Below, in pieces: positions 4,949 to 60,034 of a stretch of DNA of 64,000 nt (positions within the stretch are counted from its first letter, which is position 1; every line of letters begins with the position of its first letter). The notes beneath the pieces are model-generated. The model had not been told where the DNA came from, searched no databases, and saw only the letters and a list, made by a program, of their open reading frames with translations. The DNA comes from Alkalibacter rhizosphaerae (GTDB lineage Bacteria > Bacillota > Clostridia > Eubacteriales > Alkalibacteraceae). Position numbers and translations under genes: made by a program. The stretch is taken from contig NZ_CP071444.1 of assembly GCF_017352215.1 (NCBI RefSeq), positions 1,922,001 to 1,986,000 on the forward strand, written 5' to 3'.

Positions 4949-5407
4949 TTAAAGGGAATCCAACAATTCCAAGATCTCTTCGTCGGTAGGGATATCCTTC
5001 ATGGAGTTGCCGTAATGGATATGGCGGACGATCCCGCCTATGTCAATGATCAACTGGGCTGGCATGCGACCTAGTTTGATGATACTGACCTTTTGTTCAT
5101 ACAGGTCGGCCACCCGATGTTCCGGGTCCGGAATGCCAGGGAAGGGCATGTCGTTTTCTTCCCAGTATTTTGCAAATGCTTCCCTGTCTTCCGGTCCGAC
5201 TGCGACCACCAGGGTGTTTTTCTCTTCAAATTTGGAATAGTCCTGACGCAACTGCGCCATGTGCGCTCGGCAGTACGGTCAGACGAATCCTCTGTTGAAA
5301 ACCAGGAAAATATTTTTTTTGCCAAAATGGCTGGAAAGGGTAAAGTCGTTTCCCTGCCAGTCGGCAATGGTGAAATCCGGTGCTTTTTTGTCGATTTCTA
5401 TGCTCAT
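4949..5407 (-). CDS. Peroxiredoxin-like selenoprotein (in-frame UGA at the peroxidatic site)
   Basis: A thioredoxin-fold AhpC/TSA-type redoxin, read from the ATG at 5407 (AGGAGG seven bases upstream) to the TAA at 4949, 152 residues with one in-frame UGA at 5281-5279. Before the UGA the protein reads MSIEIDKKAPDFTIADWQGN and FLVFNRGFV; after it PYCRAHMAQLRQDY. The UGA therefore falls exactly where redoxins carry the catalytic cysteine (CxxC-like, here UPYC), and homology continues on both sides. Arms ACTGC (5255-5251) and GCAGT (5274-5270 on the opposite strand) could form a hairpin just 3' of the UGA, where bacterial SECIS elements lie. The alternative is a TGC-to-TGA nonsense mutation. Conventional callers would report only the 103-residue C-terminal part from 5260. 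Confidence 0.85.
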
Positions 5408-5712
5408 GGTAACCCTCCTTCTTGGATGTTATATAAGTTTATATATACACTTTCCTCGATCACTTAAACGGTTAATGGCTCAAAATCTCCTGCTCTTGTT
5501 TTTGTCTTCAAAAAACACGGCATCATATTTTTTTTAAAAAATGAATGGGCGAACCTGCAAATTCTTTTTTGGAATAGGGTGCTATTACATGGGAAAGGGC
5601 AAATATGATACAATGTATATATATAGAAGGCTCTGGCGATGGATGGATTTCAGGCCGAGTCTGTTTTTGATTGCAAAACCCAAAAGGGCTTTTGTAACTG
5701 GGAGGTAAAGGT
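5408..5712. other. Intergenic region between divergent redoxin and CarD-like genes
   Basis: This 305-base AT-rich stretch holds the redoxin ribosome binding site (near 5413-5418) and a possible -10 for the CarD-like gene (TACAAT within 5604-5620). I see no further gene, and no convincing -35. Confidence 0.5.
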
Positions 5713-58591: not shown

Positions 58592-60034
58592 ATGAAATAC
58601 TATGAACAATTTATTTCCAAAAAAGATGTAGAAAGAATCCATGAGAACGTGGTGCGGATCTTTGAAAATGTCGGTGTGGTATTTGAAAACCAGCGGGCAT
58701 TGGACACTTTCAAAGAGCACGGTGCCAGAGTCGAGGGCAACAAGGTTTTTATTCCAAGGAACATGCTGGAGGAGGCGGTGAAAACCGCCCCTGAAACCTT
58801 CCAGATCCATGCCAATACCGTAGGGGATGCTACCCTGGGCGGAGGAAGCATGCTGGCCGGTGGCATCGGAGGAAACATCTATATTCAAGATGGTGGAAGA
58901 GTTCGAAAAATGACCAATCGGGATGTGGTGGATCAGTTCAAACTGAACGAAACCAGTCCGGTGACCCAGTATGGCCTGGTCAACCCATTTATGGAAACGA
59001 CGGGTTTCTCTTCGGACCAAAAAATCTATGGACGGATGGCCTTTGCATTGAAGTACTCCTCCAAGTATCGCTTCAGCGTCAATTGCATCACGGATGGAGT
59101 AGAAGCCGATCAAGTTTACGATAAGGTAAAAAAAGGGATCCAGCTGGTGCGGGACTTTGAAGGGATCCAGGACAAACCAGTTATCATGGAGGGGATCAAT
59201 CCGCTATCTCCCTTGGCTTTCGATAACGCACCCATCGAAAAACTGTACGCCAACTGTCATGAAGGCCAGGCACTTTGGTTTACGCCCTGTTCCATGCCTT
59301 TGTTGACAGGACCTCCATCCGTTGCCGGATTGTTGTCCACAACGACGGCGGAAGCGTTGGCCGGGCTGGTGCTGGCCCAATTGGTCCGTCCCGGAACGCC
59401 GGTGGTATTTGGGAACACTTCTGCGTCCACCAACATGCGGACCATCCAACTTTGCATCGGCTCGCCGGAAGCGACTCTGATCGCATATGCAACGGCTGCG
59501 ATGGCGGATTTTTACAAGCTGCCATTTCGAAACGGGGGGGCATTGAGCGATGCCAAAGACGTGGATTTCCAGGCAGGGGCCGAGTCCATGATGCTTTTGC
59601 AGGCCACACTGGCCAGCAAACCGGACTATATTTTGCACATGTGCGGAGTTTTGGGGACCTTCAATATCGTCAGTTTTGAAAAGTTTCTTCTGGACGAAGA
59701 GATCATAGCCATGGTACAAAGACAACTGGCAGGGATCACAGTAGATGACAATACTTTGAGTTATGATATGATTGAAAAAGTAGGTGCTCGAGGAAACTAT
59801 CTACAAGGGCGCACCCCCAAAATGTTCCGACAGGAGTATCAAATGGCCAAGCTGTTCAACAAGGAAGATCCCAATCAGTGGCAGAAAGAAGGCAGTATCT
59901 CTGTCCGGGAAAATGCACGGGAAAAGGTGATGGACCGGTTGGAAAGCTATCAGGCACCTACGCTGGAAAAAGAACAGCTGGAATTGATCGAAAAATACAT
60001 TCCGGCAGCGTTTAAGGACAGCATTAAATTTTAA
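58592..60034 (+). CDS. MttB-family (non-pyrrolysine) methyltransferase, second copy
   Basis: Second homologue of the same length (480 aa), clearly paralogous to the first: both share KDVERIHEN, EKLYANCHEGQALWFTPCSMPLLTGP-type segments, GGALSDAKDV and RGNYLQGRTPKMFR versus RGSFLKGRTPKMYR. No in-frame UAG is present. AGGAGG precedes the ATG. Two diverged copies in one operon suggest two substrates, or successive demethylations of one substrate. Confidence 0.92.
   Translation: MKYYEQFISKKDVERIHENVVRIFENVGVVFENQRALDTFKEHGARVEGNKVFIPRNMLEEAVKTAPETFQIHANTVGDATLGGGSMLAGGIGGNIYIQDGGRVRKMTNRDVVDQFKLNETSPVTQYGLVNPFMETTGFSSDQKIYGRMAFALKYSSKYRFSVNCITDGVEADQVYDKVKKGIQLVRDFEGIQDKPVIMEGINPLSPLAFDNAPIEKLYANCHEGQALWFTPCSMPLLTGPPSVAGLLSTTTAEALAGLVLAQLVRPGTPVVFGNTSASTNMRTIQLCIGSPEATLIAYATAAMADFYKLPFRNGGALSDAKDVDFQAGAESMMLLQATLASKPDYILHMCGVLGTFNIVSFEKFLLDEEIIAMVQRQLAGITVDDNTLSYDMIEKVGARGNYLQGRTPKMFRQEYQMAKLFNKEDPNQWQKEGSISVRENAREKVMDRLESYQAPTLEKEQLELIEKYIPAAFKDSIKF

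Follow-up and report, generated by a model that had tools for sequence, protein, structure and literature searches.

A probable unannotated selenoprotein in Alkalibacter rhizosphaerae: a UxxC redoxin gene with a conserved in-frame UGA

Results

The redoxin gene and its reading frame

The window, i.e. the whole stretch of 64,000 nucleotides of Alkalibacter rhizosphaerae DNA analysed here, carries one open frame of 152 amino acids with a single TGA (Table 1). An earlier note on this DNA, made from the sequence alone, had proposed that reading through the UGA yields a full-length redoxin, and this frame is confirmed: PF00578 (AhpC-TSA) aligns with residues 5-130 of the read-through product, on both sides of the UGA (E 1.2e-22, 80.6 bits, gathering score 26), and PF08534 with residues 6-141, across the UGA (62.4 bits). 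The same note had predicted a truncated call by standard annotation; under table 11 the 103-residue alternative is indeed the sole ORF listed in the redoxin frame. In the window the gene is on its own, with a CHAD-domain gene on one side and a CarD-like gene on the other, and it is probably monocistronic in A. rhizosphaerae. No signal peptide is evident in its product.

Table 1. Features of the redoxin gene, given as positions in the window
Feature	Position	Strand	Basis or remark
Putative Sec-containing UxxC redoxin gene	4949..5407	(-)	152 aa, predicted Sec at codon 43
In-frame UGA, predicted Sec codon 43, position 1 of U-P-Y-C	5279..5281	(-)	TGA here in 23/23 loci
Cys46 codon, second UxxC position	5270..5272	(-)	faces the peroxidatic position in peroxiredoxin structures; invariant in 21 A3 rows
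Shine-Dalgarno AGGAGG, 6 nt before ATG	5414..5419	(-)	sequence reading
Terminator-like stem after TAA	4920..4943	(-)	10 pairs, 8 GC; consensus match only
103-aa ORF, table-11 alternative in the same frame	4949..5260	(-)	ORF list
SECIS-like hairpin with a stem of 6 bp and an AGUU loop whose second base is G	5244..5259	(-)	10- and 23-row alignments
Possible accessory helix UGC/GCA, 3 bp, between UGA and hairpin	5262..5272	(-)	weak

Selenocysteine machinery of the host

The earlier note had named selA, selB, selD and tRNA-Sec as the genes to look for, and all four are present in the host genome (2.45 Mb, one contig). The three protein genes score over their curated cut-offs (569, 350 and 383 bits, respectively), and the tRNA-Sec (67.6 bits) is also found by ARAGORN; selB, selA and the tRNA lie in a row at C1:2174486-2177971. 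A second place in the genome barely reaches the tRNA-Sec cut-off (47.3 vs 47). Since searches for tRNA-Sec, selB and selD match weakly in all 14 control genomes, only matches well over the cut-offs were relied on. In the window, Rfam models found nothing but tRNAs, and at E<=5 only tRNA-Sec exceeded its gathering score in L001 and L029. A second host selenoprotein, a PrxU with a TxxU motif (FVUPTE; 310.5 bits, cut-off 270), is encoded immediately upstream of tRNA-Sec, selA and selB (L001:3156-3716, minus strand). As for the YgeY-like gene that had been cited as fitting a Sec-using host, its identity is borne out (397.9 bits, cut-off 321), but at a distance of about 47 kb it does not strengthen the selenocysteine case.

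Conservation of the UGA among homologues

Relatives were collected by a scan of genome contigs with peptides none of which crosses the UGA, which gave nine loci, and from three overlapping genome samples in which only the best candidates of the first look were scored per genome: two of the 67 genomes sampled in the order bear the family, as do five of the 391 in the class and, at more than 180 bits, 11 of the 398 in the phylum. The next matches in the phylum sample score at most 80.6 bits and are other redoxins, including UGA-bearing and Cys types. The plasmid search returned 46 records, all with less than 60% identity. Of the three that were read, the one from Thermomicrobium roseum (NC_011961, 51.7% identity over residues 35-152) was counted as a member, and the other two, of archaeal origin, carry Cys and were not. 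Four phage records were all below 60% identity, and the viral contigs searched with A1 gave two pattern matches, neither of which is a relative. Duplicates were removed (L029 is a copy of the window gene, L030 of L012, L065 of L032 and L083 of L017) and the last codon of L039, a TAG, was trimmed. The structure alignment A3 holds 21 rows, without L042 and L062, both of which are kept in all 23-row counts.

The homologue alignment suggested in the earlier note speaks for Sec: in the 23 distinct loci, i.e. the window gene and 22 relatives ranging from Bacillota to the T. roseum megaplasmid, codon 43 is TGA without exception, and Cys occurs in none. The window gene shares 79% identity with L012 over its whole length. 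For the pair L013/L014, dN/dS (NG86) is 0.22 before the UGA and 0.17 after it; for the window gene and L012 the same ratio is saturated. The gene selA is found in 11/11 family-bearing genomes of the phylum sample vs 246/387 of the others, and in 12/12 whole genomes reached through the loci, one genome being common to both sets. The T. roseum record, which covers the plasmid alone, is without selA.

One locus is irregular. In L042 (L042:1501-1899), which is fragmentary and stems from a 79%-complete genome, a TAG stands in frame at the codon after His54, in addition to the UGA; decay, faulty assembly or some other cause may lie behind it. When six outgroups were included, the tree had very long branches and did not place them on one side. 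In it, the T. roseum gene (L062) groups with L043, another UGA-bearing redoxin, and the family border is therefore uncertain there. L043 is one of four distant redoxins from other phylum genomes with TGA at the U of UxxC (L043:1501-1914, UPFC; L044:1501-1953, UPNC; L046:1501-1806, ULLC; L049:1501-1914, UASC), which are probable further selenoproteins.

The effect of such a codon on annotation can be seen in the T. roseum plasmid record, where gene callers have cut a family gene at the UGA: WP_012643006.1, a 42-residue 'hypothetical protein' (L062:2899-3027), is the N-terminal piece ending at the Sec codon. L062 also has the SECIS-like hairpin.

A SECIS-like hairpin downstream of the UGA

A hairpin directly 3' of the UGA had been put forward; a conserved hairpin is real, although it starts 22 nt downstream. 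It is short and keeps a fixed distance, lying 22-37 nt past the first UGA base. The AGUU loop is common to the alignments, with GGCU in L038. Among the 22 distinct rows, 99.2% of stem cells are paired, and a shift of the partners by 1-3 columns brings pairing over the full structure down from 99.5% to 15-59%. Of the stem pairs, one is C-G in 11/22 distinct rows and U-A in the other 11/22, and another occurs as A-U, G-U or G-C. Cells with a two-sided change number 15 vs 4.5 in shuffles, and both this count and the covariation score were exceeded by 0/500 shuffles; the number of pairs with a two-sided change was reached by 13/500, and pair types are no more numerous than in shuffles (7 vs 6.9). 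In the possible accessory helix, which is largely constrained by the codons of Cys46 and His49, one pair has a two-sided change, in one of the 22 distinct sequences.

The pairing is also visible in the protein. Residues 51 and 54 covary, being Met (ATG) and His (CAT) in 12/23 loci and Ala or Thr (RCG) and Arg (CGY) in 11/23, with no mixtures, and this coupling is explained by the stem, whose pairing requires it. When the 11 Ala/Thr-Arg sequences were resampled synonymously, all six pairs arose in 0-2.65% of trials (L039 keeps five of the six), and for the 12 Met-His sequences the corresponding figure was 16-31%. On a tree built without these columns the swap between Met-His and Ala-Arg takes about three changes; since one of them depends on L042, whose placement is poor, there are few independent events. 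The earlier note had also looked to a fold of the bases after the UGA, and this gave nothing: the minimum-free-energy fold of 53 nt in the window pairs the UGA itself and is no stabler than shuffles (z -0.42). Single-sequence folding energies are likewise unexceptional in the ten sequences folded (z +0.26 to -1.46), and the case for the hairpin therefore rests on comparison.

Decoding of the UGA

Based on the Sec machinery of the host, the UGA found in every one of the loci and the covarying SECIS-like hairpin, the selenoprotein claim of the earlier note holds, and UGA 43 almost certainly encodes Sec, as far as sequence comparison can tell. The window gene is thus very probably a real, unannotated selenoprotein of an already known general kind. 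That the TGA is instead a nonsense mutation, a mark of a pseudogene or a sequencing error is highly improbable: a bare in-frame stop is all that speaks for it, and conservation of the UGA refutes it in practice, alongside the full-length identity to L012, the low dN/dS on both sides of the UGA in L013/L014 and the presence of the four Sec genes. Reassignment of UGA throughout the genome, as in code 4 or 25, has nothing in its favour and is more improbable still, being refuted by those Sec genes and by the use of TGA as an ordinary stop, which ends 11 of the 22 ORFs picked in the window.

Active site and fold

The AF2 model of the protein is confident (pLDDT 90.8, pTM 0.88). Its best fold matches in the PDB are peroxiredoxins of the Bcp/PrxQ and AhpE types (3drn, 5enu and 1xxu; TMq 0.80-0.83, 21-24% identity), which share its fold, and the thiol-disulfide oxidoreductases of the ResA/TlpA type also match (ResA, TMq 0.73-0.75). 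ResA presumably has a CxxC-type motif, with Cys, at the place of UxxC.

The earlier note had set the UGA at the peroxidatic position, and this assignment has to be given up. HMMER alignments to 3drn and 5enu put the Thr of their TPGS/TPGC motif opposite residue 43, and it is Cys46 that faces the peroxidatic Cys of 5enu; in 3drn it faces a Ser, presumably the mutated Cys of that protein. The motif is therefore UxxC, resembling that of thioredoxin, and not TxxU. Invariant in the 21 rows of A3 are N38, R39, G40, F41, residue 43, P44, C46, R114, P116, A117 and Q118, Pro116 being part of a GRMPAQ segment; of the two members outside A3, L042 carries Thr in place of R114, and L062 departs from this set at positions 38, 41 and 118. 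Arg114 is aligned with an Arg of 3drn that lies next to the strand where peroxiredoxins keep their catalytic Arg.

Gene neighbourhood of the relatives

An OhrR-like gene of the MarR family adjoins the redoxin gene in four of the 23 loci (L017, L020, L031 and L032, the last two from one genus); none was seen in the other 19 within the flanks covered (1.5-3 kb, shorter at contig ends). OhrR is a sensor of organic hydroperoxides. The copy in L031 matches 1z91, the OhrR of B. subtilis, at E 1.5e-35, and the three copies scanned score 156-170 bits with the NCBIfam OhrR model, below its cut-off of 200. Of three other genomes assigned to the genus of the L017 host, two have a glutathione peroxidase gene (PF00255) after the OhrR orthologue. 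These are Cys enzymes (L084:2069-2644 and L085:2036-2512), and L017 has the Sec redoxin beside its OhrR-like gene instead. The host of the window gene has no OhrR match at E<=1e-25.

Discussion

Comparison with known families

A 'Prx-like protein' family with UXXC in place of TXXU has been described (PMC1088965), and Prx-like UxxC proteins or 'Prx-like thiol:disulfide oxidoreductases' figure among the predicted selenoproteins of other studies (PMC1794560, PMC2398784, PMC9312934, PMC13188914), the last of which also includes a 'Redoxin family protein' (PF08534, UxxC). As far as these descriptions go, the window gene fits the Prx-like kind: it shares with it the PF00578 domain, the UxxC motif (the published kind has UxxC or UxxU) and a distant homology to peroxiredoxins (PMC1088965, PMC1794560, PMC13188914), as well as a UGA followed by a hairpin and a predicted redox role. 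Prx-like selenoproteins are assigned to Deltaproteobacteria and, as 'distant', to Syntrophomonas wolfei (PMC1794560). The published marine members have many Cys homologues (225 Sec and 2,740 Cys sequences for Prx-like 1 in the GOS data; PMC2398784), whereas the 23 loci of the window family include no Cys form.

Every NCBIfam model listed for the window protein scores below its cut-off. The best match is the SelL-related redox protein NF040769, found for all ten A1 members at E<=0.001 (best E 5.3e-23); the window protein scores 73 bits, the curated cut-off being 120, and matches over residues 7-104 only. The motif also differs, being UxxC here and UxxU in SelL. The ResA model is second best (53 bits, cut-off 170). 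PrxU (NF040737) likewise combines an AhpC/TSA fold with Sec, and the host genome encodes one next to tRNA-Sec, but its motif is TxxU and the window protein scores 24.9 bits against a cut-off of 270.

Proposed mechanism and function

In the scheme proposed here, SelB and Sec-tRNA would decode UGA 43 under the direction of the hairpin located 22-37 nt downstream, and the product would carry a thioredoxin-type U43-P-Y-C46 active site, not TxxU, on an AhpC/TSA-redoxin fold. Sec43, presumably placed at the nucleophile position of thioredoxin and glutathione peroxidase, would attack a hydroperoxide, probably an organic one; Cys46 would then resolve the selenenic acid into an Se-S bond, and thioredoxin or a similar donor would reduce that bond. 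For the peroxide substrate, for which residue attacks first and for the donor, this proposal draws on the neighbourhood of four relatives and on the chemistry of the family. We hold this hydroperoxide reduction of the glutathione peroxidase type, with Sec acting first and Cys46 resolving, with moderate confidence.

The same selenoprotein might instead serve in thiol:disulfide exchange, like ResA/TlpA or thioredoxin, rather than in peroxide reduction, a possibility that we regard as less probable though serious. It is suggested by the published family name, by UxxC in place of TxxU and by the occurrence of ResA among the sequence and fold matches (its model scoring below cut-off), and UxxC together with Pro116, invariant in 21/21 rows, fits a disulfide oxidoreductase equally well. 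The invariance of Arg114 in the A3 rows argues against it, though L042 has Thr there, as does the genetic context: the peroxidase reading is preferred because OhrR adjoins the redoxin gene in 4/23 loci and glutathione peroxidase adjoins OhrR in two congeners. A strict peroxiredoxin, with Cys46 as the peroxidatic residue and Sec43 resolving from the Thr position, would agree with the alignment of Cys46 at the peroxidatic position and with the invariance of Cys46 and Arg114 (21/21), but it would leave the second step to the stronger nucleophile; moreover, the Sec of glutathione peroxidases stands at the first position of the motif, as in the window protein. We consider such an arrangement quite improbable.

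Going beyond the reduction of hydroperoxides by Sec43, we tentatively suggest that the family may be an obligate-Sec subfamily that occurs in several phyla and lacks any Cys version, acting as a glutathione peroxidase-like organic-hydroperoxide reductase of OhrR regulons and standing in there for glutathione peroxidase in some Clostridia. A family whose members found here all carry Sec is useful for asking when Cys cannot replace Sec, and the OhrR neighbourhood found in some hosts offers a direct, testable guess at the substrate of a selenoprotein class.

A candidate Sec-containing OhrR and other observations

In Clostridium rhizosphaerae the Sec redoxin gene is directly followed by an OhrR-like gene (L017:3522-3935, plus strand) in which TGA takes the place of the conserved codon for the peroxide-sensing Cys. 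The TGA may mark either a Sec-containing OhrR or a very recent nonsense mutation. The host has a tRNA-Sec (65.5 bits) and selA, and comparison with L084 (dN 0.10, dS 1.39, NG86) gives apparent purifying selection. A selenoprotein OhrR was nevertheless not accepted: TGA occurs in none of the 34 phylum-sample matches listed, one of which carries TAA, the three congener matches are free of stops, the scanned stretches contain no hairpin of -2.5 kcal/mol or lower (the 60-nt fold gives -3.4), and the frame is apparently shifted near the 3' end. It is thus unlikely that the OhrR of C. rhizosphaerae uses Sec as its peroxide sensor, which would make it a selenocysteine transcription factor. Among the titles and abstract openings searched, none concerned this Alkalibacter gene or a Sec-OhrR, and no paper on MarR-family selenoproteins appeared.

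Two further genes of the window may be mentioned. Positions 58592-60034 hold an open frame of 480 amino acids resembling trimethylamine methyltransferase (249.7 bits, cut-off 525), whose product is apparently a non-pyrrolysine member of the MttB family, and positions 1261-2790 encode a sigma-54 regulator most like PrdR (418 bits, cut-off 795).
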